From contig CATOSZ010000001.1 of assembly GCA_951812805.1 (NCBI GenBank), positions 62,001 to 126,000 of the forward strand: a DNA stretch of 64,000 nucleotides. Direction: 5' to 3'. Shown here piece by piece: positions 13,592 to 39,555 of this stretch. The DNA comes from an uncultured Alphaproteobacteria bacterium (lineage in GTDB: Bacteria; Pseudomonadota; Alphaproteobacteria; GCA-2731375). Under the pieces are notes generated by a model, which saw only the letters and a program-made list of their open reading frames with translations, searched no databases and was not told where the DNA came from. The position numbers and the translations under genes are program-made. Numbering within the stretch: position 1 is the stretch's first letter; each line of letters starts with the position of its first letter.

Positions 13592-14581
13592 TCAGGCGAT
13601 ACGCTCGTCCTCGCCGATCAGGTGCCACGATGCTTCGCCGTCGAGGGCGCGCCGGCAGTTGGCGACGGCGCGGGCGAGCGCCACCTCCCGCCAGCCGGCG
13701 ACCACGGCCCGCGGCGTCGACCGCCATGCGAGCCCGCACCTCGTGCCCGCGCGCGTGAACGGCTGGTCCATGCGGAATTCGCCATGGCGGACCGGCTCCA
13801 CCCACCAGGCGTCGATGCAGGCGGTGAACGCGGGGGTGTCGCGGAGATGGCGATAGAGCGCCGCCTCGTCGACGATCTCGCCGCGCGCCAGATTAAGCAG
13901 GACGGCGTCCGGCTTCATCAGGCCGAGCTCCCGCGCGCCGATCATCCCGCGCGTCGCCCGGGTGAGGGAGGTGGTGATCAGCAACAGGTCGGCGGCGGCC
14001 AGCATGGTGTCGAGCTCCCCGGGCCCGGCGATCCAGTCGACCGGCTCATCGCTCGCGCCGCGACGATTGACGGCATGCACCGCCCCCACCAGCGGCCGCA
14101 TCAACCGCGCCGCCGCCACCCCGATGCCGCCGAAGCCGAGAATGCCGAGTGTCATGCGGGCGAGCATCCGGTTGGGGGTGAACTGGTTGAACTCGGCCCG
14201 CCTGAGATTGTCGTGCTCGACGAACAACCGCTTCGCCGCCGCCAGCGCCATGGCAAGCGCATGCTCGGCCATCGGCTCGGCATAACCGCCGCCATTCACC
14301 GCGACCGGCACACCGGCCGGCACCTGGCCGAGCGGGATGAAATCGACGCCGGCGGTAACGAACTGCAACAGCCCGAGGTCCACGAGCAACGGCCACTCGT
14401 CCGCCGCCAGCTCCGTCGCGGTATTGCGCGCCAGGACCGCGCCGGCACTTTCGAGCGCGCGGCGCCGCCCGGCCGCGTCGAGGTCCGCCAGATAGACGAC
14501 ATCCGCCGCCCCACCGATCCCCTCCGCCACGACCGCCCGCCCGGCCGGGCCCGGCTCGTAGCTCACCACCAACGAATCCAT
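13592..14581 (-). CDS. D-isomer-specific 2-hydroxyacid dehydrogenase, with its catalytic-histidine region replaced
   Basis: 329 residues from ATG at 14581. The NAD-binding domain is clear (LGILGFGGIGVAAARLM near residue 142) and so are the later family segments LNLARGEIVDEAALYRHL and ACIDAWWVEP. After FRMDQPF the family normally has a stretch of the type LPNV..SPH with the catalytic histidine. Here about 19 residues (275-293, TRAGTRCGLAWRSTPRAV) are unlike the family and contain no histidine; family-like sequence resumes at GWREVALARAVANCRRAL. The DNA of exactly this stretch is identical to 54 bases of the second large-subunit gene. The enzyme is therefore probably inactive despite an open frame. 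Confidence 0.85.
   Translation of the reverse strand: MDSLVVSYEPGPAGRAVVAEGIGGAADVVYLADLDAAGRRRALESAGAVLARNTATELAADEWPLLVDLGLLQFVTAGVDFIPLGQVPAGVPVAVNGGGYAEPMAEHALAMALAAAKRLFVEHDNLRRAEFNQFTPNRMLARMTLGILGFGGIGVAAARLMRPLVGAVHAVNRRGASDEPVDWIAGPGELDTMLAAADLLLITTSLTRATRGMIGARELGLMKPDAVLLNLARGEIVDEAALYRHLRDTPAFTACIDAWWVEPVRHGEFRMDQPFTRAGTRCGLAWRSTPRAVVAGWREVALARAVANCRRALDGEASWHLIGEDERIA
13704..13757 (-). repeat. 54-bp perfect repeat shared with 38047-38100 (patch inside the hydroxyacid dehydrogenase gene)
   Basis: The reverse complement of 13704-13757 equals 38047-38100 base for base. At 38047 the segment encodes HARGHEVRARMAVDAAGR in the large-subunit family frame. Here it is read in a different frame. 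Bases beyond both edges do not match. Being 18 codons long, it leaves the downstream frame intact. Confidence 0.9.
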
Positions 14582-15896: not shown

Positions 15897-15969
15897 TGTC
15901 AATCAGCATTTAATTCTGACCCCCTATCGGCGTGCAAAATTGACCCCCCCCCCCTTGCTTCGACGGAGG

Positions 15970-16072
15970 TTGTCCCGGTAGTCCACGGGAGGGCCCCGCG
16001 CGGCTTCGTGTAGCGCTTTGCGTTACGCGGAGCGAAGCCGCGTGGGAGGGGCCTGTGGGCCCACCGGGACAA
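15970..16072. repeat. About 100-nt imperfect palindrome inside IS21 copy 1
   Basis: The outer arms TTGTCCCGGT and ACCGGGACAA are perfect, and the inner part pairs GGCTTCG with CGAAGCC around GCGCTTTGCGTTACGCGG. The same structure is at 35722-35824 in copy 2. It could fold as a long hairpin in RNA or DNA; its function is unknown. Confidence 0.6.
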
Positions 16073-16243
16073 CCGGGCCGGCGGCGGAACGTGGGGATCA
16101 GGTGGGGTTCTTGAAGTGGCAATGAGCTTTTGAAGTAGTGTCCAGACTGTTCTGCAAGTTTGTCATGGCTGCCGATGAGGGCCACCGGCATGCCTGGCGC
16201 GGAGATTTCGATTGCTCGGAGCGCCAGGCATGCCGAGCCGCCG

Positions 16244-16393
16244 TCAGGCGGCTTTCTGGATGCGTTCGCTTTTGCTCTCCTTGAGATGGATCATGTTGAG
16301 CTAGCGGTTGGCATCCAGCCAGTCCTCATGGATTTCGATCGCGAGAGCCCGGACCAGCCGGAGGCAGCTCATCCACCCCATCGGCCCGGACTT
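16244..16393 (-). pseudogene. IS256-family transposase C-terminal remnant inside IS21 copy 1
   Basis: The minus strand encodes LRLVRALAIEIHEDWLDANR, a stop codon, then LNMIHLKESKSERIQKAA and a stop. This is the characteristic IS256-family C-terminus with one internal TAG. Nothing of the catalytic domain remains. Because the same remnant is in copy 2, it was part of this IS21 unit before the unit duplicated. Confidence 0.7.
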
Positions 16394-16467
16394 GTGCCCC
16401 AGCTACGAAACCCCTTTTGCAGAACAATCTGTACAGGACCCGTTTTGATTTGCCCGCCTTTGCGATG

Positions 16468-16516
16468 AAAGCCCCCAGGCTGATTGGCTCCATATAGCGG
16501 ATCAGCCTGGGGCTTT
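16468..16516 (-). terminator. Hairpin downstream of istB, copy 1
   Basis: Arms AAAGCCCCCAGGCTGAT and ATCAGCCTGGGGCTTT are 16-17 bases with a loop of about 16, located 14 bases past the istB stop. Reading on the minus strand only a short T tract follows, so termination would be weak or factor-assisted. Confidence 0.45.
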
Positions 16517-16529
16517 GCTTACAGGGCGG

Positions 16530-17261
16530 CTACTTTTGTCGTCGCTGTTTGCTTTGTGCGAAGCGGTAAGACATGTTGCCTGTTTCGATGATTGCGCAGT
16601 GATGCGTTACACGATCCAGCAACGCGGTTGTCATTTTTGCATCTCCGAAGACGGAGACCCATTCCCCGAACTCCAGATTGGTGGTGATGATGACGCTGGT
16701 CTTCTCATAGAGTTTGCTGATCAGGTGGAACAAGAGCGCACCGCCGGATTTGGGGAATGGGATATAGCCCAGTTCGTCGATGATGACGCAATCCATGGCC
16801 GTCAGTTGCCGGATGATCTTGCCGGCGTTGCCTTCGGCCTGTTCCTTGATCATCGCATTGATCAGATCGACGGCGTTGAAGAAACGGACCTTCTTTCCCT
16901 GATTGATCAACAGCGTCCCCAGAGCAATGGCGATGTGGGTTTTGCCCGTACCGGTTCCGCCCACCAGAATGAGGTTGTGGGCCTCCTGGGTGAACTGCCC
17001 TGAGCAGAAGGGGTCGATTTGCGCTTGGGTGACGGCGGCTAGGCCGTAATCGAAAGTGGCGAAGTCCTTATGGTGGGGGAACTTCGAGGCCCGCATTTGG
17101 TGCTGGATAGAGCGCACCCGGCGCTCTACAGTCTCGGCGTCGATCAGTTGCTTTATCGCAGTGGTCAGACTTGGCGGCTTGCGCGCGGCCAGCAAAGCTT
17201 CGGCGCAAGCCGCCATTCCATACAGCCTCAGGGCGATCAGTTGGTCTATCAAAGCTTTCAT
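16530..17261 (-). CDS. istB: IS21-family helper ATPase IstB, copy 1
   Basis: 243 residues from ATG at 17261, which overlaps the istA stop by 4 bases; an upstream in-frame start (17285) lies inside istA. The AAA+ ATPase is recognised by [17 protein letters not shown] (Walker A, near residue 105) and [11 protein letters not shown] (Walker B), with the IstB-type tail [23 protein letters not shown]. It assists IstA in target capture. Compared with copy 2 it has Met instead of Leu in the segment LINA(M/L)IKEQAEG. Confidence 0.95.
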
Positions 17262-18757
17262 GCGACGGCCTCCCCGGCAACGCACAGCGTCTCATAGCGC
17301 TTGCAGTCCGCTTCGGGCCGCAAGGTCAGTTGCGGATAGGCGTGGCTCTCGCCCCATGGCGCGATGACCGGCTCCACCAGTTGGTTGATCAGATTGATGA
17401 TGGCCGGAAGGCGCAGCGTGTTCTGCTCCACGGCCAGTTCACAGGCTATCTCGACCACCTCGATCCCGTGATCCTGGGCCAGCAGGAGCAGATCGACAAA
17501 CTCCCGGTCCCCGCCTTTGCCGGCCATGTAATGCGCCCTGACCCGGTGCATCGCCTCAGGCAATTGCCAACCCACAAAGGGCGCGCCATCTCTCAGCGCG
17601 CCGGGCTTGCGGTCGAGTAGGGGCAGGTAATGCCAGGGCTCGAAATAGCTGGCGTTGCGGGTAAAGCGGCGCTTGTGCTCGGCAATCACATTCTGCCCTG
17701 ACACAACCACGATCCGGTCCGCATAGGCGCGCAGAGAGACAAGCTCCCCGGCGAACCGGGAGGGGACGCTATAGCGATTGGTGGCATATTGGACCAGACA
17801 GGTAGAGCGGACACGAGCGGCCTTCTCAACATAGCCGTCAAAAGCCCGGCCCAGGGGACGCAGTTCGGCGCACTCGTCTGCGAACACGTCCGAGATCTTG
17901 CGATCCGATTGTTCGGGGTGGGCGCGATTCGCCAATTCCTCGCAGCGCAGACGCAACCAGCCGTTCAGCGCATCCAGATCGTCAAAGGCGGGCTTGGGCG
18001 CAAACAGCTGTCCCCGCAGGAACCCAACCTGGTTCTCAATCTGACCCTTCTCCCACCCCGCCGCGGGTGTGCAAGCAACCGGTTCCATCACATAGTGGTT
18101 CATCAACGCCAGAAAGCGCGGATGGAACACACGGTCCTTAGAGCGCGAAACATAGGTTACCATCGTCTTGGGGTTGTCGATGATCACCCGGCGCGGTACG
18201 CCGCCATAGAAAGACATCGCCCGTGCAAAGGCGTCCAGCACCATCTCCTGAGATTCGCTGGGATAGGCAACAACAAAGGGCTTGCGGCTATGACATAGGC
18301 GGAAGTGGGCAACCTTTACCTTCTGCTCGACACCGCCCAGGACAGCGTATTCCGTGCTCCAGTCAAACTGGAGCGCGTCACCTGCCGTAAAGTGCAACGG
18401 AATGAACGCATCCCCCGATCCGGCGCCAGAACGCTTCAGGTCGCGGACAAACCTCTGAACCGTCGAGTAGGATCCGCTATAGCCTTCCGACACAAGCTGC
18501 TCATAAAGCTTCTTGGCCGTCCGGCGCTCACGGCGCGGGCGCCCCAGGTCCTGCTCAAAGAGCGCCCGAAGCCGGCTGGCGAAGCCATCGCTAAGCTTAC
18601 GCCGGACGGGTGAAACGCGCCGCTGATAGCTCGGTGGATCGCCGTCCTTCAGATACTTCTTAATCGTGTTCCGCGACAAACCAGTCTGACGAGATACAGA
18701 TCGGATACTCCGACCCTCCCGTAATATCCAACGTCGGATCTTCAATACGCTTTCCAT
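17258..18757 (-). CDS. istA: IS21-family transposase IstA, copy 1
   Basis: 499 residues from ATG at 18757 ([15 protein letters not shown]); a GTG 27 bases upstream is also in frame. An N-terminal helix-turn-helix ([20 protein letters not shown]) is followed by the DDE integrase domain: [16 protein letters not shown] with the first Asp near residue 131, [12 protein letters not shown] with the second, and [12 protein letters not shown] with the glutamate. The predicted sequence is identical to copy 2. It catalyses transposition of the whole unit together with IstB. Confidence 0.95.
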
Positions 18758-18921
18758 CAATACCACCTGCTCTTTCCTCCGCACTGTTCCGTGCGGATGC
18801 TAGCGTTCCAGGTGGGTCAATTCTTACCGCTCATAACCCACCAAAGTGGGTCAGTTTTGCATGCCGATTCACAGTCCTCGTGCTCAAACCCTCATCGCCC
18901 CGGCACGCCCGCTGGTTTGCA

Positions 18922-18991
18922 AGGGGTCAAGTCTTGCTTTTTGCATACATCTGTTGACGATCATGAATGCAAAAAGCAAGACTTGACCCCT
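18922..18991. repeat. REP-like palindrome (25-base arms)
   Basis: The arms read AGGGGTCAAGTCTTGCTTTT followed by TGCAT, and their exact reverse complement at 18967-18991, with a 20-base loop. A close relative lies at 20982-21049. Such GGGGTCAAGTCTTGC palindromes are associated with REP-associated tyrosine transposases, and a fragment of one sits at 32774-32920. Confidence 0.75.
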
Positions 18992-19044
18992 TTGCGTTCG
19001 GCCAGGGGCATCGGACTGGGCTGGACTATCTTTGGCCGCTCGCC

Positions 19045-19671
19045 CTAATTGTGCCAGGCGAAGGGCGCGAAGTGGCCGTTGTTGCCGCGCCCGACCAGGT
19101 CGAGGTCGAGGTCGAAGCCCTCGACCCGAAGAGCCGAGGTGCGGGCGAGCGCCAGGCGACGGTTGGCCGGATGCGATGTGTTGTCGAGATACATCGGCTC
19201 ACCCCCGCCGCCGGCACGCGGCTCGACACCTTCGATCTCGAAGTGGAAGACGCCGCCCGCCGTGGCGACGCGGCGCAGCCCGTCGATGGTAAAGTCGAGC
19301 GCGGTCACCTGGACGCCGCGAAAGTCGCTCACCAGGCCATCGCGGATCATGCCGGGAACGCCGCCCGCCTCGCCACCGGCAATCCGGGCGAGGGCGTCTC
19401 TTTGCGCCTCGTCCGCCCGCTCGTCGACCACGGCGGCGAAGACCCACTCGCCGTCCGCCATCACCCGGCCCGAGCGGATGGCGAGGCCGAATGCCAGCCC
19501 GTCGAGCACGACCCCATCGGCCCGGCCCGCCTCGATATGGTAGAGCATCATGGAGTAGCAATGATCGTTCGTCGCCGGCCCCTGGGGGTTGGTATAGACG
19601 CAGGGGCAGACATAGTCGCAGTTGCAGCTCTCCATGTACTCGCCCCGGATCTCCCACCGCATCTCGGTCAT
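19045..19671 (-). CDS. DUF1326-domain protein
   Basis: 208 residues from ATG at 19671 (MTEMRWEIRGEYMESCNC); a start 27 bases earlier is possible. The family hallmark is the cysteine cluster ESCNCDYVCPC at residues 12-22, likely a metal or thiol site. The rest (FRGVQVTALDFTIDG, then MYLDNTSHPANRRLALARTS) matches the longer DUF1326 form. Function is unknown; family members often accompany DUF2182 membrane proteins. A paralogue at 61398-62018 does sit next to DUF2182, but this copy does not. It is followed upstream on the same strand by the DUF3303 gene. Confidence 0.82.
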   Translation of the reverse strand: MTEMRWEIRGEYMESCNCDYVCPCVYTNPQGPATNDHCYSMMLYHIEAGRADGVVLDGLAFGLAIRSGRVMADGEWVFAAVVDERADEAQRDALARIAGGEAGGVPGMIRDGLVSDFRGVQVTALDFTIDGLRRVATAGGVFHFEIEGVEPRAGGGGEPMYLDNTSHPANRRLALARTSALRVEGFDLDLDLVGRGNNGHFAPFAWHN

Positions 19672-19768
19672 CGCGTCCTCCCCCACAGCAAAAGCCATGT
19701 GAAAGTATCGCCGCGGGGCACGGGCCGCGCAACGCCGAGGGCCGGCCGCGCCGGGTCGCCGTGGGCGC

Positions 19769-20068
19769 TCAGGCGCTGTTGTCCGCGACGATCTGCCCGC
19801 CGATGACGGCCGCCTCCTCGTCGTCGACGACGGGGGTGATCTGCAGTTCCATGTGCGGGTTCCATTTGCCCATGTAGCGTTGAACGGCGGCGAGGTCGTC
19901 CGCCTCGACGACCGCGACGCCCTTGCGCCCGACCACATCGTGCCAGCGGCCGAGCGCCGTCACCCCCTCGCCATAGTCGGCCCGCTCGGCCGGCGTCATT
20001 GAGCTGAACACCTCGAGCACGGGCAGCCAGTTCTGCGGTGGGATCGCCCAGGTCACCATGAATTTCAT
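19769..20068 (-). CDS. DUF3303/YciI-like small protein
   Basis: 99 residues from ATG at 20068 with a GGAGAGCGG ribosome site. MKFMVTWAIPPQNWLPVLEVF and ALGRWHDVVGRKGVAVVEADD fit the DUF3303 family of ferredoxin-like (dimeric alpha-beta barrel) proteins. No catalytic residues can be named. It probably shares a transcript with the DUF1326 gene about 70-100 bases downstream. Confidence 0.72.
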   Translation of the reverse strand: MKFMVTWAIPPQNWLPVLEVFSSMTPAERADYGEGVTALGRWHDVVGRKGVAVVEADDLAAVQRYMGKWNPHMELQITPVVDDEEAAVIGGQIVADNSA

Positions 20069-20253
20069 AACCGCTCTCCTCCGGTTGGCGTCGTTGCAGC
20101 GAACGTCGGCTTGGATATTAGCGGGTGATGGCGTCGAAGCGCGAGTCCGCCGGCCCGATCGGGCCTCGATCACACCTGGGCGTGATTTTCAACCGGGACC
20201 CGGGCGTTGTATGAGAGGGGCTGGCCTCGCGGGAAGATGAACTGGGACATGAC

Positions 20254-20880
20254 ATGTTGAAAATCGAATATTTCTACTCGGCACATTCGGCCTTCGCCTA
20301 TCTCGGCTCCGCCCGCTTGATGGAAATCGCGGCCGCCGCCGGGTGCGGAATCGTGCACAAGCCGGTCGACCTCCGCCGGGTCATGGTCGAGTCCGGTGCC
20401 GGCTCGTCCCGCGAGCGCAGCGACCGGCACCGCGCCTATTATTTCGGCCGCGAGATCCAGCGTTGGTCCGAATGGCGCAACGCCCCCGTCGTCACCGGCA
20501 TGCCTACCCACCACTGGAACGACACGGCCCTGTGCAACGGCATGCTGATCGCCGGGATCGAGCAAGGCCACGACGTCGACCGGTTGGCGCACCGGATGCT
20601 CGAAGCCTATTGGCGGGACAACGCCGATCTGGCCGACCCTGCGACCCTGGCCGGGCTGGCGGACGAGGTCGGCCTCGCGCCCGCACCCCTGCTCGATGCG
20701 GCCGGGTCGCCGGAGATCGCCGCCATTCTCCTCGCCAATACGGAGGAAGCGATCCGCCGCTCCGTCTTCGGGTCGCCGACCTACTTCGTCGACGGCGACA
20801 TGTTCTACGGCCAGGACCACCTCGAACTCGTCGAACGCGCCATCGAGCAACCCTTCGAAGGGACGTGGCCGCCGCGTTGA
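20254..20880 (+). CDS. DsbA-fold protein, 2-hydroxychromene-2-carboxylate isomerase family
   Basis: 208 residues. The opening IEYFYSAHSAFAYLGSARLMEIA replaces the CxxC motif of DsbA with SAHS, as in the glutathione-dependent kappa-class isomerases. The conserved cis-proline block FGSPTYFVDGDMFYGQDHLE is near residue 172. The family isomerises 2-hydroxychromene-2-carboxylate in naphthalene pathways, but most members act on unknown substrates. It stands alone on the + strand between the DUF3303 gene and a palindromic repeat. Confidence 0.85.
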   Translation: MLKIEYFYSAHSAFAYLGSARLMEIAAAAGCGIVHKPVDLRRVMVESGAGSSRERSDRHRAYYFGREIQRWSEWRNAPVVTGMPTHHWNDTALCNGMLIAGIEQGHDVDRLAHRMLEAYWRDNADLADPATLAGLADEVGLAPAPLLDAAGSPEIAAILLANTEEAIRRSVFGSPTYFVDGDMFYGQDHLELVERAIEQPFEGTWPPR

Positions 20881-20981
20881 GGGCTGCGGCGACGAGGTAA
20901 CCGTCGGCCCAGCGCACGCACGCGACGCAGCGCGAGGCCAATAGGGCCAGACGCGGCACGAGGTCGACGGGGTCGGTCAAT

Positions 20982-21049
20982 GGGGTCAAGTCTTGCATTT
21001 TGCATACATGGGACGGTGATCATATATGCAAAAAGCAAGACCTGACCCC
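20982..21049. repeat. REP-like palindrome, second copy
   Basis: The left arm starts GGGGTCAAGTCTTGCATTTT and the right arm ends AAGCAAGACCTGACCCC; 25-base arms with two mismatches and an 18-base loop. It shares almost the whole arm with 18922-18991, marking these as members of one dispersed family. Confidence 0.75.
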
Positions 21050-21108
21050 TTTTCGCCATGTTCGACGTCGCCCGCCGGCCTGTACTAGGCTGGCGCGAGA
21101 GGTGCACG

Positions 21109-22344
21109 ATGGCGAACGTTAGTTTGCGCGATCTGCGGATCGTTCCGCGTCGGCAGGGTCGGCTGGGGGACTGGCTGAGCGGTGGCTCGGACGGGCGGGG
21201 CTTCGTCATCGAGGGCTTGAACCTCGATGTTCCCCACGCGCAGACCACGGTGGTGCTGGGGCCGAGCGGTTGCGGCAAGTCGACGTTGCTGCGGGTGATC
21301 GCCGGGCTGATGCCGGCGAGCGGCGGACAGATCCTCGTTGGCGGCGAGGATGTCGAGGGCGTGCCGCCGCGCAATCGCAACATCGGCTTCCTGTTCCAGA
21401 ACTACGCGCTCTATCCCCACTTCAACGTCCGCGAAAACATCACCGCCTATTTCCGCTTCCGCAAGCAAACCCCGGAACTGGGCGAGCGGCGCGAGGCGGC
21501 GTTGCGGCGAACCAGCGAGCTGCTGGACGTCGACATCTCCTACCTGCTCGACCGTTCGCCCCGCGGCCTGTCGGGCGGCGAAAAGCAGCGCGTGGCGCTC
21601 GGCCGTTGCATCACCCGCGAGCCGGAGCTGTTTCTTCTGGATGAGCCGTTCTCGAACCTGGACGCCCAGCTGCGCACCCGCTACCGCGAGCATCTGAAGA
21701 CCCTGCTGCGCGAGCTGTCGATCACCACCGTCTATGTCACCCACGACCAGCAGGAGGCGACCCTGCTGGGGCACAGAATCGCAATCATGAACAAGACGCG
21801 CCACGACGGCGTCATGTACGGTCAGATCGAGCAGGTCGGGACCCTGTGGGAACTTTACGAGCGCCCCGGAAGCGCGTTCGCGGCCGAGTTTCTCAATCCC
21901 CACCCCCATCTCCCGGCAATCGCCTTCGTCGACGCCAGACTGTTCGACCCCGCGTTGGCGGGGATCGTCGTCGGGGTTCGGCCCGAGCATGCGCGCCTCG
22001 CCGCACCGTCGGAGGGCCCGGCGATCCTCGGCCGCGTTCGCGACGTGGGCCACGATGCGCTCGGCCGGCACCGCGTCGTCACCGTCGAACTGGGCGTCGG
22101 GGCGAATTCCGATACCGGGACGCCGGGCCGCTCCACCGACCCGGCGTCGGCGGACGGGCGAGGGGCGCAGGGCAACGAAATCTCGGCGGCGATTTTCACG
22201 GACGATCCCATCGCGCCCGGCGACGACGTGCAGCTACGCTTCGCCAAACTGCATGCTTTCGACCGGGATACCGGCGCGGCGCGATCCCTCCCACCAGCGC
22301 TCGCGGTCTATCAGGACGAGGCGGGTGGGCACCCGGCGGGGTGA
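21109..22344 (+). CDS. ABC transporter ATP-binding protein (MalK/UgpC-like with TOBE region)
   Basis: 411 residues from ATG at 21109 with GAGAGGTG upstream. Walker A is GPSGCGKST near residue 52, the Q-loop LFQNYALYPHFNVREN, the signature LSGGEKQRVALGR, Walker B ELFLLDEPFSNLDAQLR, and the H-loop TVYVTHDQQEA. The C-terminal 140 residues (VVGVRPEHARLAAPSEGP onward) form the TOBE-type extension of sugar/polyamine importers. The N-terminus has an unusual insert of about 20 residues before the first strand. No permease or binding-protein gene is nearby, so it is an orphan or was separated from its partners by the surrounding rearrangements. Confidence 0.87.
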   Translation: MANVSLRDLRIVPRRQGRLGDWLSGGSDGRGFVIEGLNLDVPHAQTTVVLGPSGCGKSTLLRVIAGLMPASGGQILVGGEDVEGVPPRNRNIGFLFQNYALYPHFNVRENITAYFRFRKQTPELGERREAALRRTSELLDVDISYLLDRSPRGLSGGEKQRVALGRCITREPELFLLDEPFSNLDAQLRTRYREHLKTLLRELSITTVYVTHDQQEATLLGHRIAIMNKTRHDGVMYGQIEQVGTLWELYERPGSAFAAEFLNPHPHLPAIAFVDARLFDPALAGIVVGVRPEHARLAAPSEGPAILGRVRDVGHDALGRHRVVTVELGVGANSDTGTPGRSTDPASADGRGAQGNEISAAIFTDDPIAPGDDVQLRFAKLHAFDRDTGAARSLPPALAVYQDEAGGHPAG

Positions 22345-22410
22345 GTCTTCGCAACGGGCTTATACCATCGAGCGATCGAAACGACTCGCAGTCGGTGTCA
22401 TCCGCTCGCT

Positions 22411-22520
22411 GTCATCGCGAGGCGCGGAGCGCCGTGGCGATCCAGGACTCTTCGAGATCAAGCTCGATTCTTCGATAGCCGTCACGTTGCCCTGGATCGC
22501 CACGCTCCGCTCGCGATGAC
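22411..22520. repeat. Intergenic inverted repeat
   Basis: Arms GTCATCGCGAGGCGCGGAGC... (22411-22446) and its complement ending CTCGCGATGAC (22491-22520) pair over about 30 bases with small gaps. Patterns of this kind (GTCATCGCGAGCGGAGCGTGG) are dispersed intergenic repeats in several alphaproteobacteria. It may act as a bidirectional terminator between the convergent ABC ATPase and racemase genes. Confidence 0.6.
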
Positions 22521-22597
22521 AAGAGCACGAGACTGAGCGTCAATTCAAAGGCTCGCTGGTACCAGGCGCCGGGGAAGACAGGTCGATTTTAGTGATA

Positions 22598-23278
22598 CTA
22601 CCCCCGCCCGGCGCTGGGGGTGGTCCAGCCGAGGCGGACGGCGCCGAGCGCCTGGGTGACGGCGGCCTGGCTCGGGTCGATGACGGGGACGCCGGTCTCG
22701 TCTTCCAGGCGCGCGCGGTAGTTCGCCATGCCGGCGCAGCCCATGATCAGCACGTCGGCGCCGTCTTCCTGGACCAGGGCGCGGGCGACGTCGCTCATCC
22801 GGTCGCCGACCTCGTCGCCCGCCAGGCCGGTGACGCCGACGCCGATCGGCCGTTCGCCGGCGAAGCGCTCGGCCAGGCCGAGCTGGCGGATATAGCGCCG
22901 GTGCCGCGCGACGGAGGCCGGCAGGATGGCGATGATCGCAAAGCGGTCGCCCAGGCCGAGCGCCTGGGTGATCGCGCATTCGGAAATGCCGAGCACCGGT
23001 TTTGCCGTGCTCTCGCGTGCGGAATGCAGGCCCGGATCGGAGAAGCAGGCGACAACGAAGGCGTCGGCCGTGTTGTCCTCGCGGCGGATCAATTCACAGA
23101 GCGGGGCGACGACGCCGTCGACATGGCGCTGGGTCTCGATCCCCGGCGGGCCCTCGGCGAGCGTCAGGCAATCGATCGCCGGGCCGTCGGCGAAGCGCAG
23201 GGGGCGGACCGCCTGGTCGATGCCCTCGGTCACGCGGGTGGTGCTGTTGGGGTTGATGACGACGATCCGCTCGCTCAT
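22598..23278 (-). CDS. Asp/Glu/hydantoin racemase-family protein
   Basis: 226 residues from ATG at 23278. The opening VVINPNSTTRVTEGI and the two catalytic cysteine sites, VVACFSDPGL near residue 77 and IMGCAGMANYRARLE near residue 182, match hydantoin racemase and related cofactor-independent racemases. The following EDETGVPVIDPSQAAVTQALG also fits. It probably interconverts D- and L-hydantoins or amino acid derivatives, though maleate isomerase-like activity is possible. The gene lies 35 bases downstream of the acyl-CoA synthetase gene on the same strand, so it may be the last member of that operon. Confidence 0.87.
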   Translation of the reverse strand: MSERIVVINPNSTTRVTEGIDQAVRPLRFADGPAIDCLTLAEGPPGIETQRHVDGVVAPLCELIRREDNTADAFVVACFSDPGLHSARESTAKPVLGISECAITQALGLGDRFAIIAILPASVARHRRYIRQLGLAERFAGERPIGVGVTGLAGDEVGDRMSDVARALVQEDGADVLIMGCAGMANYRARLEDETGVPVIDPSQAAVTQALGAVRLGWTTPSAGRG

Positions 23279-23313
23279 GGCCGCTCTCCGGTTTGCTTGG
23301 GCGGAGTATAGCC

Positions 23314-25479
23314 TCAGGCCGAGCGTTTCACGATCAGCGCGTCGACCACGCTCGCGCCCCGTTCGTGCACGATGACGGGATTGAGGTCGATCTCGGCGAT
23401 CTCGCCCGCGTGCTCGGCCGCCAGGCGGGAGAGCCGGGCGACGATCTCGGCGAGCGCCGCGACATCTGCCGGCGGGCGGCCGCGCGCGCCGTGCAGGATC
23501 GCAGCGCCCGTCAGGCCCTCGATCATGCGCCGGGCGGCACTCGGTGATACCGGTGCCGGCAGGGTCGCGGCGTCCTGCAAAATCTCGGCGAAGATACCGC
23601 CGAGGCCGACGGTCACCAGCGGGCCGAAGGTTTCGTCGCGGCTGATGCCGACGATCATCTCGACGCCGTCGGCCGCCATCGCCTGGACCAGCACGCCGTC
23701 GACGCGGGCTTGCGGTGCGGCCTCGCCCGCGCGGGTGCACAGGCGCTCGTAGCCGGCCCGGGCCGCCGCGTCATCGGCGACGTCGAGTAGCAGCAAGCCC
23801 AGGTCGCTCTTGTGCGGCAGATCGGCGGATTGCAGCTTGAGGGCGACCGGGCCGCCGGCCGCCGCCTGCGCCTCGGCCGCTTCCGCGCCGGAATGGACCA
23901 GCCGTTCAAACGGTGCGGCGATACCGTAGTGCGCCAACAGCGGCTTGGCCTGGTGTTCGGCCAGGACGGGCCCGGCGGTGGCCAGCGCGGCGGCGACGGC
24001 CGGGGCCGCGTCGGACGGAATTGCCACCGTCTCGTCCCGTTCCGCCAGATAGCGCGCGCGATGCTGGCGGTAGCGCACGAACGCCGCCAGGGCGCGCGCC
24101 AGGTGCGTCGAGTTGGTGAACAGGGGATAGCCCGCCCGGCTGAGGATTTCGATCGAGCGGGGATGGGGCAACGTGTAGGACCAGAAGGCGACCGGCTTGC
24201 GCGAACGCGCGCGCAGCGCCACCAGGTTCTCCCGGTCGTTCTCCAGCCGGCGGGGCAGGCGGGCCGAGGCGATGGCGACGACCGCGTCGAGGCTGGGGGA
24301 ATCCAACAGCAAGTCGAGCAGGCCGGCATAGCCGAGGCGGCCGACCGCCTGCGCCGTCGCGTCGACCGGATTGCGCGAGGAGCCATAGCTCGGCAGGTGG
24401 GTGTCGATCCGCGCCCGGGTCTCCGCGTCCAGTTCCGGTACCTCCAGCCCGGCGAGGCTGGCGCCGTCCGCCATCCAGCCGCCCGCACCGCCGGAGCCGG
24501 TAAAAATGCCGACCCGCATCCCCGCCGCCTCGCGGTCACGCCAGGCGACGAAGGCACCGGCGATGTCGACCGCTTCCTCGATGTTCTCCACCTCGATCAC
24601 GCCGTATTGGGCGAACATCGCGCTGTAGCCGGCATAGGCACCGGCCAGCGCCGCCGTGTGTGACATCGCCGCGCGCACGCCGGCTTCCGAGCGGCCGATC
24701 TTCACCACGATCAGCGGCTTGCCCTCGGCGAGCGCCCGTGCCGCGGCGCGGCGGAACTTCGCGGGGTCCTTCACGTTCTCGCAGAACAGGATGAAGGCCT
24801 GGACCTCGCCCTCCTCCAGCATCCACTCGACGACGTCGAAGGTCTCCAGGCAGGCCTCGTTGCCGGTCGACAGCACATAGCCGACCGGCAGCCGCTTCGG
24901 TCGGGCCCGGTCGAGGAACGAGAAGCCGATGCCGCCGCTCTGCGCGACCACGCCGATCAGCCGGCCGTCGCTTTCGGGCGGCAGCAGGGATTCGCCGTCC
25001 TCCACCTCGACCGCCGGCGAGAAAGTCGGGCACAGTCGCGAGCGCGTATTGGCGAAGCCTTCCGAGTTCGGCCCGACCACGGCCATGGCGTATTTCTCGG
25101 CGACGGCGCGGATCTCGTCCTGCAGCGCCTCGCCCGCGCCGGCGACCTCCTCGGCGAAGCCGGAGGTGATGATCTGCGCCGCGCGCACCCCGGCCGCCCC
25201 ACACTCGGCCAGAACCTTGGGCACGTGCGGCGCGGGGATGATGATGATCGCCAGGTCGACCGGCCCGGGCGCCGCGGTGATCGTCGGGTAGGCGGCGAGG
25301 CCGAAGACGGTGTCTTCGCTGCGGCTGATCGGCAGGATCTCGCCGTCGAAATCATGCAGCAGCATCACCCGCATGATCTGGCTGCGCAGGCCTTCGGCCT
25401 TCTCGCTGGCGCCGATGACGGCGACGCGCTTCGGCCAGAACAGCGGGCGCAGGTCGGGCGTCGCCGCAGATGTGGTCAT
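23314..25479 (-). CDS. ADP-forming acyl-CoA synthetase (NDP-forming acetate--CoA ligase family, fused subunits)
   Basis: 721 residues from ATG at 25479. The CoA-binding Rossmann domain opens RPLFWPKRVAVIGASEKAEG. A succinyl-CoA-ligase-like domain follows with VAQSGGIGFSFLDRA and the phospho-histidine segment AAMSHTAALAGAYAGY near residue 270. An ATP-grasp half begins around residue 490 (LLAHYGIAAPFERLV ... GPVALKLQSADLPHKSDLG) and ends DLNPVIVHERGASVVDALI. These enzymes activate organic acids to CoA thioesters. Its place at the head of acyl-CoA dehydrogenase and enoyl-CoA hydratase genes suggests that it activates or releases the acid that they degrade. Confidence 0.9.
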   Translation of the reverse strand: MTTSAATPDLRPLFWPKRVAVIGASEKAEGLRSQIMRVMLLHDFDGEILPISRSEDTVFGLAAYPTITAAPGPVDLAIIIIPAPHVPKVLAECGAAGVRAAQIITSGFAEEVAGAGEALQDEIRAVAEKYAMAVVGPNSEGFANTRSRLCPTFSPAVEVEDGESLLPPESDGRLIGVVAQSGGIGFSFLDRARPKRLPVGYVLSTGNEACLETFDVVEWMLEEGEVQAFILFCENVKDPAKFRRAAARALAEGKPLIVVKIGRSEAGVRAAMSHTAALAGAYAGYSAMFAQYGVIEVENIEEAVDIAGAFVAWRDREAAGMRVGIFTGSGGAGGWMADGASLAGLEVPELDAETRARIDTHLPSYGSSRNPVDATAQAVGRLGYAGLLDLLLDSPSLDAVVAIASARLPRRLENDRENLVALRARSRKPVAFWSYTLPHPRSIEILSRAGYPLFTNSTHLARALAAFVRYRQHRARYLAERDETVAIPSDAAPAVAAALATAGPVLAEHQAKPLLAHYGIAAPFERLVHSGAEAAEAQAAAGGPVALKLQSADLPHKSDLGLLLLDVADDAAARAGYERLCTRAGEAAPQARVDGVLVQAMAADGVEMIVGISRDETFGPLVTVGLGGIFAEILQDAATLPAPVSPSAARRMIEGLTGAAILHGARGRPPADVAALAEIVARLSRLAAEHAGEIAEIDLNPVIVHERGASVVDALIVKRSA

Positions 25480-25502
25480 CGTTGAAACTCCTCGGGGCGG
25501 GG

Positions 25503-26648: not shown

Positions 26649-26665
26649 GATGTTCTGCCTTCCCT

Positions 26666-27720: not shown

Positions 27721-27731
27721 CGCCGGCGACC

Positions 27732-28520: not shown

Positions 28521-28598
28521 GGTGTCCTCCGTTGGGTAATGGCGATTGTGGGATTCGGCCTTTGAGTAGCACGCCGACATTCGAATGGCGATTCGATT

Positions 28599-32920: not shown

Positions 32921-33036
32921 TGTGAATCGGCATGCAAAACTGACCCACTTTGGTGGGTTATGAGCGGTAAGAATTGACCCACCTGGAACGCTAGCATCCG
33001 CACGGAACAGTGCGGAGGAAAGAGCAGGTGGTATTG

Positions 33037-34536
33037 ATGGAAAGCGTATTGAAGATCCGACGTTGGATATTACGGGAGGGTCGGAGTATCCGATCTGTAT
33101 CTCGTCAGACTGGTTTGTCGCGGAACACGATTAAGAAGTATCTGAAGGACGGCGATCCACCGAGCTATCAGCGGCGCGTTTCACCCGTCCGGCGTAAGCT
33201 TAGCGATGGCTTCGCCAGCCGGCTTCGGGCGCTCTTTGAGCAGGACCTGGGGCGCCCGCGCCGTGAGCGCCGGACGGCCAAGAAGCTTTATGAGCAGCTT
33301 GTGTCGGAAGGCTATAGCGGATCCTACTCGACGGTTCAGAGGTTTGTCCGCGACCTGAAGCGTTCTGGCGCCGGATCGGGGGATGCGTTCATTCCGTTGC
33401 ACTTTACGGCAGGTGACGCGCTCCAGTTTGACTGGAGCACGGAATACGCTGTCCTGGGCGGTGTCGAGCAGAAGGTAAAGGTTGCCCACTTCCGCCTATG
33501 TCATAGCCGCAAGCCCTTTGTTGTTGCCTATCCCAGCGAATCTCAGGAGATGGTGCTGGACGCCTTTGCACGGGCGATGTCTTTCTATGGCGGCGTACCG
33601 CGCCGGGTGATCATCGACAACCCCAAGACGATGGTAACCTATGTTTCGCGCTCTAAGGACCGTGTGTTCCATCCGCGCTTTCTGGCGTTGATGAACCACT
33701 ATGTGATGGAACCGGTTGCTTGCACACCCGCGGCGGGGTGGGAGAAGGGTCAGATTGAGAACCAGGTTGGGTTCCTGCGGGGACAGCTGTTTGCGCCCAA
33801 GCCCGCCTTTGACGATCTGGATGCGCTGAACGGCTGGTTGCGTCTGCGCTGCGAGGAATTGGCGAATCGCGCCCACCCCGAACAATCGGATCGCAAGATC
33901 TCGGACGTGTTCGCAGACGAGTGCGCCGAACTGCGTCCCCTGGGCCGGGCTTTTGACGGCTATGTTGAGAAGGCCGCTCGTGTCCGCTCTACCTGTCTGG
34001 TCCAATATGCCACCAATCGCTATAGCGTCCCCTCCCGGTTCGCCGGGGAGCTTGTCTCTCTGCGCGCCTATGCGGACCGGATCGTGGTTGTGTCAGGGCA
34101 GAATGTGATTGCCGAGCACAAGCGCCGCTTTACCCGCAACGCCAGCTATTTCGAGCCCTGGCATTACCTGCCCCTACTCGACCGCAAGCCCGGCGCGCTG
34201 AGAGATGGCGCGCCCTTTGTGGGTTGGCAATTGCCTGAGGCGATGCACCGGGTCAGGGCGCATTACATGGCCGGCAAAGGCGGGGACCGGGAGTTTGTCG
34301 ATCTGCTCCTGCTGGCCCAGGATCACGGGATCGAGGTGGTCGAGATAGCCTGTGAACTGGCCGTGGAGCAGAACACGCTGCGCCTTCCGGCCATCATCAA
34401 TCTGATCAACCAACTGGTGGAGCCGGTCATCGCGCCATGGGGCGAGAGCCACGCCTATCCGCAACTGACCTTGCGGCCCGAAGCGGACTGCAAGCGCTAT
34501 GAGACGCTGTGCGTTGCCGGGGAGGCCGTCGCATGA
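33037..34536 (+). CDS. istA: IS21-family transposase IstA, copy 2
   Basis: 499 residues from the ATG after GGAGGAAAGAGCAGGTGGTA; the predicted protein is the same as the copy at 17258-18757, with the same helix-turn-helix and D, D, E residues. Start choice: an upstream in-frame GTG at 33010 is possible, but MESVLKIRR begins the family homology. It overlaps istB by 4 bases. Confidence 0.95.
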
Positions 34537-35264
34537 AAGCTTTGATAGACCAACTGATCGCCCTGAGGCTGTATGGAATGGCGGCTTGCGCCGAAGCTTT
34601 GCTGGCCGCGCGCAAGCCGCCAAGTCTGACCACTGCGATAAAGCAACTGATCGACGCCGAGACTGTAGAGCGCCGGGTGCGCTCTATCCAGCACCAAATG
34701 CGGGCCTCGAAGTTCCCCCACCATAAGGACTTCGCCACTTTCGATTACGGCCTAGCCGCCGTCACCCAAGCGCAAATCGACCCCTTCTGCTCAGGGCAGT
34801 TCACCCAGGAGGCCCACAACCTCATTCTGGTGGGCGGAACCGGTACGGGCAAAACCCACATCGCCATTGCTCTGGGGACGCTGTTGATCAATCAGGGAAA
34901 GAAGGTCCGTTTCTTCAACGCCGTCGATCTGATCAATGCGCTGATCAAGGAACAGGCCGAAGGCAACGCCGGCAAGATCATCCGGCAACTGACGGCCATG
35001 GATTGCGTCATCATCGACGAACTGGGCTATATCCCATTCCCCAAATCCGGCGGTGCGCTCTTGTTCCACCTGATCAGCAAACTCTATGAGAAGACCAGCG
35101 TCATCATCACCACCAATCTGGAGTTCGGGGAATGGGTCTCCGTCTTCGGAGATGCAAAAATGACAACCGCGTTGCTGGATCGTGTAACGCATCACTGCGC
35201 AATCATCGAAACAGGCAACATGTCTTACCGCTTCGCACAAAGCAAACAGCGACGACAAAAGTAG
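34533..35264 (+). CDS. istB: IS21-family helper ATPase IstB, copy 2
   Basis: 243 residues from ATG at 34533 within the istA stop overlap. Walker [10 protein letters not shown] and Walker B VIIDELGY are intact. It differs from copy 1 by Leu for Met in LINALIKEQ (base 34941). Both copies could therefore supply functional transposition proteins. Confidence 0.95.
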
Positions 35265-35277
35265 CCGCCCTGTAAGC

Positions 35278-35326
35278 AAAGCCCCAGGCTGATCCGCTAT
35301 ATGGAGCCAATCAGCCTGGGGGCTTT
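35278..35326 (+). terminator. Hairpin downstream of istB, copy 2
   Basis: Mirror image of the copy 1 hairpin: arms AAAGCCCCAGGCTGAT and ATCAGCCTGGGGGCTTT, 14 bases past the istB stop, followed by a short T tract (TTTC). If weak, IS transcription could run into the truncated amidohydrolase gene. Confidence 0.45.
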
Positions 35327-35400
35327 CATCGCAAAGGCGGGCAAATCAAAACGGGTCCTGTACAGATTGTTCTGCAAAAGGGGTTTCGTAGCTGGGGCAC

Positions 35401-35550
35401 AAGTCCGGGCCGATGGGGTGGATGAGCTGCCTCCGGCTGGTCCGGGCTCTCGCGATCGAAATCCATGAGGACTGGCTGGATGCCAACCGCTAGCTCAACA
35501 TGATCCATCTCAAGGAGAGCAAAAGCGAACGCATCCAGAAAGCCGCCTGA
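35401..35550 (+). pseudogene. IS256-family transposase C-terminal remnant inside IS21 copy 2
   Basis: The same remnant as in copy 1: LRLVRALAIEIHEDWLDANR, TAG at 35491, LNMIHLKESKSERIQKAA, TGA at 35548. A 20-base segment resembling TCCTGTACAGATTGTTCTGC at 35356 and its partner near 35640 form an inverted pair around it, perhaps relic ends. Confidence 0.7.
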
Positions 35551-35721
35551 CGGCGGCTCGGCATGCCTGGCGCTCCGAGCAATCGAAATCTCCGCGCCAG
35601 GCATGCCGGTGGCCCTCATCGGCAGCCATGACAAACTTGCAGAACAGTCTGGACACTACTTCAAAAGCTCATTGCCACTTCAAGAACCCCACCTGATCCC
35701 CACGTTCCGCCGCCGGCCCGG

Positions 35722-35824
35722 TTGTCCCGGTGGGCCCACAGGCCCCTCCCACGCGGCTTCGCTCCGCGTAACGCAAAGCGCTACACGAAGCCGCGCGGGG
35801 CCCTCCCGTGGACTACCGGGACAA
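35722..35824. repeat. About 100-nt imperfect palindrome inside IS21 copy 2
   Basis: Mirror copy of 15970-16072 with the same outer arms (TTGTCCCGGT/ACCGGGACAA). Confidence 0.6.
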
Positions 35825-35884
35825 CCTCCGTCGAAGCAAGGGGGGGGGGGTCAATTTTGCACGCCGATAGGGGGTCAGAATTAA

Positions 35885-37177
35885 ATGCTGATTGACACGC
35901 TGCCCCTCAACCTCTGGTTCCTGAACGCCCTGCCGCCGGTCTATCCGCCCCGCAGCCTGGCGGAGATCCGGGCCCGCACCCTGCTCGGCGCGGTCGAGTG
36001 CCTGGAGGCGGGCATGACCACGACGCAGGACATGGTGACCTTGTTTCCCGCCGACGAGGCGCGGCTCGACGCGGTGCTGCAGGCCTATGACGAGATCGGC
36101 ATCCGCGCCGTGATGTCCTTGCAGTTCGGCGACCTGCGTGCCCTCGACCGGGTCCCCTATTGGCGCGAGGTGGTGCCCGAGGCTCTGCACGACCGGCTGG
36201 GCGCCGCCGTCGCGCCGGGGACGGCGGACAAGATGCTGGACTTCGTCGAGGGCGCCTATCTGGCGAACCGCGACCGCTCCCCCCTCATCAGCTGGGCGTT
36301 GAGCCCGACCAGCCCGGCCATGGCCTCGGCCGAGCTGTTGTCCCGGGTCGCCCGGCTGGCCGCGCGGCACGACCTGCCGGTTACCACCCACCTTTACGAG
36401 ACCCGGGCGGAGGCGGTGTCGAGCCGCAAGCTGCTGGGCGAACATGGCGGCTCGGAAGTCCGGCTGCTCGCCGCCGCCGGGCTGCTCGGGCCCCGGCTGA
36501 CCCTGGCGCACGCGATCTGGCTGTTGGACGAGGAGATCGACCTCATCGCGGCGGCCGGCGCCGGCGTGGTGCTGAACCCGGCCGGCAACCTGAAGACCAA
36601 GAGCGGCGTGGCCCCGATCCGCCGGCTGCGCGCGGCCGGCGTCGAGATCGCGCTCGGCAGCGACAATTGCAGCTGCAACGACGCGCAGAACATGTTCCAG
36701 GCGATGAAGCTGTTCTGCGGTCTGGCGGCGATCGAGGATCCGGAGGACGGCGGCCCCGATGCCGAAGCGGCGATCGCGGCGGCGACCCGTGGCGGGGCGC
36801 GGCGCCTCGGCCTCGCCGGTGCCGTCGGCGAGATCGAGGTCGGCGCGGCGGCCGATCTGGTGCTGCTGGATCTTTCGCGGCCGAGCTTCGTGCCGTTGAA
36901 CCATGCCGCGCGTCAGCTGGTCTATGGGGAGGCCGGGGCGGCGGTCGACAAGGTGCTGGTCGCCGGCCGCCTGCTGGTCGACGGCGGGCGCTGCATCGCC
37001 GTCGACCGGGCAGCACTGGCCCGCGAGGCGGAGGAACTGGCCGAGGGCCTGCGCGCCGATGCGGCCGAGGTCGCCGCGCGTTTCGACGAGCTGGCACCGC
37101 ACGTCTGGGAAGCCTGGCGCCGGTCCTGGCGGGACGACGTCGGCGTCCACCGTTACGTCGGCCGGTCGCCGTTCTGA
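35885..37177 (+). CDS. Amidohydrolase (TrzA/AtzA/guanine-deaminase-like), N-terminus replaced by IS21 end
   Basis: 430 residues from an ATG that lies inside the IS21 terminus; only MLID comes from the IS, and LPLNLWFLNALPP onward is host gene. Visible metal-site residues are the histidine in VTTHLYETRAEA, that in LTLAHAIWLLD, and GSDNCSCND. The family's first motif (GLINAHTH-like, two zinc ligands) and about 60-80 residues before it are missing, so hydrolase activity is doubtful. Family members deaminate or dechlorinate guanine, cytosine or triazine-type rings. It heads a group with a molybdenum-hydroxylase large subunit and a Gfo/Idh oxidoreductase, fitting N-heterocycle catabolism. Confidence 0.85.
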   Translation: MLIDTLPLNLWFLNALPPVYPPRSLAEIRARTLLGAVECLEAGMTTTQDMVTLFPADEARLDAVLQAYDEIGIRAVMSLQFGDLRALDRVPYWREVVPEALHDRLGAAVAPGTADKMLDFVEGAYLANRDRSPLISWALSPTSPAMASAELLSRVARLAARHDLPVTTHLYETRAEAVSSRKLLGEHGGSEVRLLAAAGLLGPRLTLAHAIWLLDEEIDLIAAAGAGVVLNPAGNLKTKSGVAPIRRLRAAGVEIALGSDNCSCNDAQNMFQAMKLFCGLAAIEDPEDGGPDAEAAIAAATRGGARRLGLAGAVGEIEVGAAADLVLLDLSRPSFVPLNHAARQLVYGEAGAAVDKVLVAGRLLVDGGRCIAVDRAALAREAEELAEGLRADAAEVAARFDELAPHVWEAWRRSWRDDVGVHRYVGRSPF

Positions 37178-37185
37178 GGGGCCGG

Positions 37186-39555
37186 GTGGTGGAATTCGAA
37201 CGGGATATCGCCCCGCTCGGCACGGCGCTGCCGCGCGCCGGTGCCCGCCGCCTGGTGGCCGGGCGAGGACGCTATACCGACGATCTGGTCTTGCCCCGCA
37301 TGCTGCACGTCGCCTTCGTGCGCAGCCCGTATGCCCATGCCCGCATCGCCGGCATCGACACGGGCGAGGCCGGCGCGATGTCCGGCGTCGCGCGCATCGC
37401 CACCGGCGCCGAGCTGGCGGCGCTGATCCAGCCCTGGCAGGCGCGCAACGAAAGCCAGCCCGCGCTCCGCTCGCCGCCGCAGACGGCGCTGGCGATCGAC
37501 GTCGCCCGCTGGCAGGGCGAGCCGGTGGCCGCCGTCGTCGCCGAAAGCCGCGCCCGCGCGGAGGACGCGGCCGAAGCGGTCGCGGTCGACTGGCGGCCCC
37601 TGCCGGTGGCGGTCGGTGTCGCGACGCCGCACGCCGTGCACGAGGCCATTGCCGACAACCTCAGCTTTGCCGCCGACTACGAGACGGGCGACGTCGAGGC
37701 CGCCTTCGCCGGGGCGGCCCATATCGTCGGGGCCGCGTTCCGCTTCGCCCGCCACACCGGCGTGCCGTTGGAGACGCGGACGGTGCTGGCCGATTTCGAT
37801 CCCGCCGCCGGCCGCCTCACCGTGCATCAATCGCACCAGACGCCGCACCAGCAGCAGGACAATTTCGCCCGCCTGCTCGGCTTGCCGGAACACAAGGTGC
37901 GCGTCGTCTGTCCCGACGTCGGCGGCGCCTTCGGCATCAAGCTGCAACTCTACGGTGACGAGATCGCGACAGCGGCGCTGGCGATCCTGCTCGGCCGACC
38001 GGTGAAGTTCCAGGCCGACCGGCTGGAGGCCTTCCAGAGCGACATCCACGCGCGCGGGCACGAGGTGCGGGCTCGCATGGCGGTCGACGCCGCGGGCCGT
38101 ATCCTCGCGCTCGATGTCGAGGACGATTTTCCGATCGGCCCGTTTTCGCAGTTTCCCCGCTGCACCATGGCGGAGGGGCTGCACGTCATCCGCCTGGCGG
38201 GCGTGCCCTACCGCCACGAGGCGCAGCGCGGCCGGCTGCGCGTGCTGTTCCAGAACCTCAATATGGTCGGCCACTACCGCGGCGTCGGCCATCCGGTCGC
38301 CTATGCGGTGGGGGAGCGGCTCGCCGACCTGGCCGCCGCCCGCACCGGCCTCGACCCCTTCGCCTTCCGCCGGCTGAACACGGTGACCGAGGCCGAAATG
38401 CCGGGTACGAGCGCGAGTGGCCAGCGCTTGCGCGGGACCTCGCCGCACGCCTGCCTCGACGCGCTGGAACGCGCGATGGCGCCGGCGACCTTGCGCGCCC
38501 GCCAGGCCGATGTGCTTCGCCGGGGCCGGCGCCTCGGCATCGGCATCGCCCAGTTCGTGGAGATCACCAGCCCGGGCCCGGAAGGCTACGGCCCGGCCGG
38601 CATCCGGGTTAGCACCCAGGACGCGGTTGCCTTGCGGCTGGAGCCTTCGGGCGTTGCCCGGCTCGCCGCCTCGATCACCGAGCAGGGCCAGGGCACCGAC
38701 GCGGCCCTGGCGCAGATCGCCGCCGCCGGCCTCGGCCTCGACGCCGGCAGCGTCGAGGTGACGACAGGCGACAGCGCGCTCACCCCCTATGGCGGCGGCG
38801 CCTGGGCCAGCCGGGGCATGATGGTCGGCGGCGAGGCGGCCTGGCGCGCCGCCCGCCGGCTGCGGGCGAACGTGCTGGAGATCGCCGGCGCCTTGCTGCA
38901 GGCGGCGCCCGCCAGCCTCGACATCGTCGCGGGCGACGTCGTCGACGCCGACGGCGGTGAGGCGCGCATGCCGCTTGCCGAGGTCTGCCGCATCGGCCAC
39001 TTCCGCCAGGACCTGTTGCCGGCGGATCTGCAACCGACCCTCGACGTCGTCGTTCCCCATGTCCCGCGCGGCGGTGGCGGCCTGACGGCGGGCGCGCAAG
39101 GCGCGCTGATCGCCCTCGATGCCGAAACGGGCGGGATCGAGTTGCAGCGGCACTGGGTCGCGCACGAGGCCGGCACGCTGGTCAATCCGATGCTGGTCGC
39201 CGGGCAGATCCGCGGTGGCGTGGTCCAGGGCCTGGGCGCCGCGCTGTTCGAGGAATGCCGCTACGACGGCGAGGGCCAGCTGCTCAACCCGCAGCTCGTC
39301 GATTATCTGGTGCCGATGGCCGGCGAGATGCCGGAGATCGAGGTGATCCATGTGCCGCGCGCCGGCGGGGGCGGCGAGGGGGGCGACGGGGGCCTCGGCG
39401 CCAAGGGCGTTGGCGAGGCGGGCGTCGCGGGCGCCAGCGCCGCGGTCCTGAACGCCATCAACGATGCGTTGGCGCCGCTCGGCGCCGCCCTGCACGAGCT
39501 GCCGGCAACGCCCGAGCGGGTGCTGCGTGCGATCCAACGGGGAGAAAGCTCATGA
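37186..39555 (+). CDS. Second molybdopterin-binding large subunit of the CO-dehydrogenase/xanthine-dehydrogenase family
   Basis: 789 residues from GTG at 37186 (a second GTG follows directly), 8 bases after the amidohydrolase stop. Family landmarks are RLVAGRGRYTDDLVLPRMLH, VCPDVGGAFGIKLQLYGDE, GHYRGVGHPVAYAVGERL (form II-like loop) and GAKGVGEAG with the catalytic glutamate near the C-terminus. No medium or small subunit gene accompanies it; the operon goes straight to the Gfo/Idh gene with an ATGA overlap. Whether it used the subunits of the other operon before the IS damage is unknown. Bases 38047-38100 recur in the hydroxyacid dehydrogenase gene. Confidence 0.9.
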   Translation: MVEFERDIAPLGTALPRAGARRLVAGRGRYTDDLVLPRMLHVAFVRSPYAHARIAGIDTGEAGAMSGVARIATGAELAALIQPWQARNESQPALRSPPQTALAIDVARWQGEPVAAVVAESRARAEDAAEAVAVDWRPLPVAVGVATPHAVHEAIADNLSFAADYETGDVEAAFAGAAHIVGAAFRFARHTGVPLETRTVLADFDPAAGRLTVHQSHQTPHQQQDNFARLLGLPEHKVRVVCPDVGGAFGIKLQLYGDEIATAALAILLGRPVKFQADRLEAFQSDIHARGHEVRARMAVDAAGRILALDVEDDFPIGPFSQFPRCTMAEGLHVIRLAGVPYRHEAQRGRLRVLFQNLNMVGHYRGVGHPVAYAVGERLADLAAARTGLDPFAFRRLNTVTEAEMPGTSASGQRLRGTSPHACLDALERAMAPATLRARQADVLRRGRRLGIGIAQFVEITSPGPEGYGPAGIRVSTQDAVALRLEPSGVARLAASITEQGQGTDAALAQIAAAGLGLDAGSVEVTTGDSALTPYGGGAWASRGMMVGGEAAWRAARRLRANVLEIAGALLQAAPASLDIVAGDVVDADGGEARMPLAEVCRIGHFRQDLLPADLQPTLDVVVPHVPRGGGGLTAGAQGALIALDAETGGIELQRHWVAHEAGTLVNPMLVAGQIRGGVVQGLGAALFEECRYDGEGQLLNPQLVDYLVPMAGEMPEIEVIHVPRAGGGGEGGDGGLGAKGVGEAGVAGASAAVLNAINDALAPLGAALHELPATPERVLRAIQRGESS
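38047..38100 (+). repeat. 54-bp segment duplicated at 13704-13757 (probable donor)
   Basis: Here the sequence is in the family frame, HARGHEVRARMAVDAAGR, continuous with flanking conserved residues, so this copy is judged the source. Identity with the complement of 13704-13757 is complete and ends sharply on both sides. Confidence 0.9.

Follow-up and report, generated by a model that had tools for sequence, protein, structure and literature searches.

How can 54 base pairs belonging to one gene come to stand, letter for letter, within an unrelated gene that lies 24.3 kb away in the sequence? This question is raised by the window analysed here, a stretch of 64,000 nucleotides from the genome of an uncultured Alphaproteobacteria bacterium (7.42 Mb on 19 contigs), in which the reverse complement of positions 13704-13757, inside a gene of the D-2-hydroxyacid dehydrogenase family, is identical at 54 of 54 positions to 38047-38100, inside the gene for the large subunit of a molybdenum (Mo) hydroxylase. 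A preliminary description of the window had called attention to this exact match and to its sharp edges, and comparison of the window with itself bears out both: over the 40 nt flanking the 54-bp patch, identity falls to 0.23 and 0.45. The answer developed below is that the patch is, on balance, probably the product of a recent and real two-step template switch (or of short-patch heteroduplex repair), in which a pair of inverted insertion sequences (IS) of the IS21 family held the flanks of the two genes in register. The features concerned are collected in Table 1.

Table 1. Features of the window that bear on the origin of the 54-bp patch.
Feature	Position	Strand	Basis or remark
Foreign 54-bp patch in the dehydrogenase gene	13704..13757	-	From the third base of residue 275 to residue 293
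Patch source: native Mo-hydroxylase large-subunit codons (HARGHEVRARMAVDAAGR)	38047..38100	+	Matches the stretch in relatives
D-2-hydroxyacid dehydrogenase-family gene, recipient	13592..14581	-	Pfam 2-Hacid_dh_C and alignment of 43 homologues
IS21-family copy 1 (istA and istB on the minus strand)	15897..18873	-	IstB_IS21, rve, Mu-transpos_C_2; left end directed towards the patched gene
IS21-family copy 2, opposite in orientation to copy 1	32921..35897	+	Left end faces the donor gene
Amidohydrolase remnant, N-terminally truncated by IS copy 2	35885..37177	+	Matches to PDB and Pfam start within the domain
Molybdenum-hydroxylase large subunit, donor	37195..39555	+	Ald_Xan_dh_C, MoCoBD_1, MoCoBD_2; start at about 37186-37195

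A chance origin of the match is excluded: by chance alone, the genome would be expected to contain about 1e-16 matches of 54 nt, and the window about 1e-20. With positions 13680-13780 as the query, a genome-wide search locates the patch in two places only, and a scan of 1.8 Mb of the 7.42-Mb genome revealed no second isolated, exact, two-copy patch of such length joining unrelated unique genes. When the junctions were searched for in a plasmid collection and in viral contigs, there was no match.

The recipient gene encodes a product of 329 residues that retains an intact NAD-binding domain, with a GxGxxG-type motif together with the catalytic Arg and Glu (GFGGIG, RGEIVDE, WWVEP). At the site of the patch, each of the 43 homologues in the alignment (51-63% identical) has 'LxLPNVI(G/A)SPHNSAS' or a sequence close to it, and the histidine of its SPH is the one on which catalysis in this family depends. 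This SPHxx motif is absent from the window protein, where its place in the 43-homologue alignment is occupied by the patch, which is translated in a frame other than that of its source, as TRAGTRCGLAWRSTPRA, and which leaves the reading frame open. The SPHNS of the homologues aligns, moreover, with the SPH of a relative of solved structure (3gvx). The preliminary description had proposed just this, namely that a segment read in a different frame had displaced the stretch with the catalytic histidine while keeping the gene open, and it is confirmed by the alignment with D-2-hydroxyacid dehydrogenases, in which the intact version (a native stretch of the 15-codon type) was found in 43 of 43 sequences and the patch in none.

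Up to the next shared residues, the homologues have 14 or 15 residues at the patch site versus 17 in the window protein. By this comparison, about 45 native bases (about 15 codons) are judged to have been swapped for 54 (18 codons), a net gain of 9, which makes the event a replacement rather than a pure insertion. The earlier proposal of a templated insertion or filler event stands in so far as it concerns the templated origin, but not as regards filler at a clean break, since those 45 or so base pairs were replaced. In the window protein the match to the Pfam domain 2-Hacid_dh_C (PF02826) spans profile positions 1-162 of 178, as compared with 1-177 in the homologues, and in an AlphaFold2 model built from 41 sequences (mean pLDDT 87) the sole run below 50 is formed by residues 283-292, inside the patch. 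Outside the patch the protein is predicted from this model to be intact and well folded. Judged from its sequence, the patched gene is very probably open but catalytically dead; that it is otherwise intact and open is what would be expected if the change were recent. At the switch points no microhomology can be demonstrated, the codons of relatives allowing from 0 to about 4 nt of it; no same-genus genome was among the relatives retrieved.

Within the Mo-hydroxylase gene, by contrast with its altered reading in the dehydrogenase, the segment is read in the conserved frame (HARGHEVRARMAVDAAGR), as had been noted earlier, and agrees with the family consensus. At the same position, relatives of the same family and class (48-54% identical to the donor) have, for example, HARDHRVRARMAISESGK and CRDHEVRARMAFSGSGE, a comparison that rests on six forward-strand relatives, those on the reverse strand having been left out of the alignment. 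Because the segment is native in Mo-hydroxylase relatives and absent from 43 of 43 dehydrogenase homologues, the roles of donor and recipient are fixed, and the direction of copying given in the preliminary description, from the Mo-hydroxylase gene into the dehydrogenase gene, holds on the evidence of these alignments. A check for synteny of the two genes in relatives, which found only distant Mo-hydroxylase homologues near three of the related loci, was not informative.

The strongest clue to the mechanism is the mirror register that patch and source keep with an inverted pair of IS21 copies. The element, about 2976 bp in length and present in many copies, carries the genes for IstA (rve/Mu-type) and for the IstB ATPase between TG...CA ends; copies 1 and 2 are 99.93% identical over 2982 nt, with 2 differences, 1 of which is inside the element. 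Patch and source flank this pair on its two outer sides: measured outward from the respective left ends, the patch begins 2139 nt from copy 1 and the source 2149 nt from copy 2, and both have the same orientation as viewed from the IS, that is, a mirror orientation. In other words, when the two IS copies are overlaid, patch and source come to lie opposite each other to within 10 nt at their near ends, a register that a template placed anywhere in the window would attain by chance with a probability of about 1.6e-4. Patch and source are close to each other only if the inverted copies are paired; otherwise the full 24.3 kb separate them. This arrangement suggests that the transposons lined up patch and source during DNA repair or copying, and the geometry says, in addition, that the patch event came later than the arrival of both IS copies at their present flanks.

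It had also been remarked that, without the IS block, the two sites would be about 4 kb apart. This proves to be arithmetic only, the outer flanks of the two IS copies not being a target-site pair. Neither copy 1 nor copy 2 has a target duplication of its own; a genome-wide search found no target-duplication partner for either left end; and the N-terminus of the amidohydrolase remnant, the first ATG of which lies inside IS copy 2, is missing from the left flank, beyond the far end of the IS pair. On these grounds, the idea that the outer flanks were contiguous in an ancestor was rejected.

Several other features of the window may be recorded at this point. By their coordinates, exactly 20,000 bp separate the outer ends of IS copies 1 and 2 (15897 to 35897), probably by coincidence. 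An exact 45-bp direct pair with a spacing of 49 bp adjoins IS copy 2 (32696-32789), and a palindromic, MITE-like element (AAGGGGTCAAGTCTTGC...) occurs twice, in copies 2 kb apart (18921-18996 and 20982-21055), with related motifs (GGTCAGGTCTTG) elsewhere in the genome. Positions 43743-44951 are made up of four tandem units, spaced at 303 bp and 66-76% alike.

In the genome as a whole there are 100 exact left ends and 92 right ends of the IS21 element, and these roughly 100 near-identical copies look like the outcome of a very recent burst. Among 41 copies used to derive a consensus, variation is confined to the length of a poly-C tract at the left end and to three single-base columns. A copy's own target duplication is kept in 12 of 70 full copies, and about 36 target duplications match the far side of a different copy, in part reciprocally (position 55771 of contig C3 with position 171769 of the same contig; C1:1511988 with C9:327070). 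Such mismatched duplications reflect either rampant recombination between IS copies or contigs misjoined at them. Contigs C2 (53955-97409) and C3 (2374234-2406098) are identical around IS copies near the end of C3; their shared flanks of 5 kb and 8.5 kb, identical as far as they were compared, are possibly redundant assembly ends.

The flanks of all these copies (1.8 Mb) were taken, and 9136 same-side pairs, drawn from the 100 left and the 92 right ends, were compared. Across these pairs, the sole isolated match that is in register, measures 20 nt or more and joins non-mobile DNA is 13704-13757/38047-38100, and the IS copies in that one pair are adjacent, inverted and on one contig. That the patch joins neighbouring inverted copies, and none of the others, fits what an intramolecular event would predict. 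In the first 41 copies, shorter near-register matches (12-17 nt) are roughly as common as at control offsets, apart from a small surplus on the right side.

The mechanism proposed here would start with pairing of the inverted IS21 copies, either through RecA-driven exchange or through single-strand annealing at a stalled or broken fork. Such pairing would set the non-homologous outer flanks side by side, so that the point about 2.14 kb along one of them would come to lie opposite the point about 2.15 kb along the other. A strand of the dehydrogenase flank that was undergoing resynthesis or repair could then copy 54 nt off the facing Mo-hydroxylase flank and afterwards return to its own template. 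Possible routes to this outcome are a D-loop with a long non-homologous tail, branch migration by RuvAB/RecA past the end of the homology, and a switch at a stalled fork. The exact copy, the direction in which it was made, the replacement of native bases and the unique mirror register are established by the analysis; that the two elements paired and that strands were switched is inferred. The open-licence papers searched describe no bacterial mechanism for a switch 2.1 kb past the end of homology, and an in-register copy in non-homologous DNA 2.1 kb beyond repeats was likewise not found in them. Filler left by classical non-homologous end joining (NHEJ) is unlikely and was rejected because the genome (98.5% complete) gave no match to a Ku gene, a Bacillus subtilis control being positive.

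An artefact of assembly, consensus or amplification remains the main rival, and is regarded as unlikely though by no means negligible. Reads from the flank of copy 2, or a chimera formed in vitro, would in that case have been laid over the flank of copy 1 by way of the shared 2976 bp, so as to leave 54 wrong bases in the consensus, and the gene in the cell would be normal. IS-mediated misplacement would give precisely the register with the IS ends that is seen, in an assembly whose IS flanks are heavily shuffled (witness the 12 of 70 copies with their own duplication) and two contigs of which have long identical regions containing IS copies. The patch is situated, however, 2.1 kb away from the sequence that the copies share, at a point where reads derived from copy 2 have nothing in common with copy 1 and would be clipped; a partner chosen at random would be the neighbouring inverted copy in only about 1 case in 99; and the frame remains open across the patch, as it would in about 28% of cases by chance. 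Moreover, with 100 copies at hand, other flank pairs should have been hit too and none is: a systematic artefact of IS flanks was rejected, there being no second isolated non-mobile patch of at least 20 nt in the 9136 pairs.

A replacement that did take place in the cell might nevertheless have been an ordinary templated one, mediated by microhomology and drawing on a template elsewhere in the region, with the IS uninvolved and the mirror register coincidental. Many organisms are known to undergo templated insertions and template switches, for which long repeats are not needed (PMC7954356, PMC5120786, PMC8604942), and this speaks for such an origin; it is made improbable by a register within 10 nt in the right orientation (chance about 1.6e-4), by a template 24 kb off, which is far for a short-range switch, and by the lack of Ku. 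It is scarcely credible that the shared 54 bp are a mobile or repeated element, comparable to the palindromic elements of Rickettsia, or an ancient domain common to both genes. They do lie within the open frames of two coding genes, but one gene family has them natively and the 43 homologues of the other all lack them, and their occurring in only two copies in the genome led to rejection of the mobile-element reading. Classical ectopic gene conversion between homologous genes, in which a short tract is likewise copied non-reciprocally, is very hard to reconcile with two unrelated genes in different frames, and the homologous flanks that characterize it are lacking, 40-nt identities of 0.23 and 0.45 being about what chance would give.

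If the template switch between flanks aligned by paired IS21 copies is real, then repeated transposons can direct a short, exact, non-homologous transfer of sequence at a distance, an effect additional to the insertions, deletions and inversions for which they are usually held responsible. Genes that are open but dead, and that annotation pipelines take to be intact, would be left behind. More generally, and quite tentatively, inverted IS pairs in bacteria may serve as a register hinge, whereby pairing aligns the non-homologous flanks and the facing flank overwrites bases kilobases away from the IS; insertion sequences would then be able to mutate genes that they have never touched. A real event would also make a cheap genome-wide test available, in which genomes are scanned for short, exact patches that mirror each other about inverted IS pairs.

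Template switches in which the reverse complement of a neighbouring segment takes the place of a short stretch are known from great apes (PMC7954356) and from inverted repeats in yeast (PMC8604942), the yeast study dealing with repeat arms of at least 7 bp and spacers of up to 70 bp. Like these short-range switches, the patch is an exact reverse-complement replacement that introduces a cluster of changes in one step; of the marks by which template switches are recognized, both an inverted exact copy and the replacement of ancestral sequence are found here. Nearness of the template is not: it lies 24.3 kb away, and the sole shared repeat is the IS pair, which ends 2.1 kb short. The patch also shares with the templated insertions of end-joining and replicative repair (PMC5120786, PMC11292364) a sequence copied from elsewhere, but differs from them in that no Ku gene was found in the genome, in that it took the place of native bases and in having a position linked to the IS ends. 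As in the quasipalindrome switching of Escherichia coli (PMC7202029), inverted repeats would direct a nascent strand to the wrong template in a bacterium, although there the copied bases are inside an imperfect palindrome and here they are in non-homologous DNA outside it. Finally, in the inverted-repeat-mediated replicative rearrangements (MMBIR) of PLP1 (PMC4352052), large inverted repeats position a switch between distant sites, as is proposed here, and the products are duplications, triplications and inversions whose junctions fall inside the repeats; the present event, unlike those, is a replacement by 54 bp in which the two junctions both fall outside the repeats and no rearrangement is in evidence, and it bears the mirror register with the repeat ends (2139 versus 2149 nt) that marks an event directed by inverted repeats.
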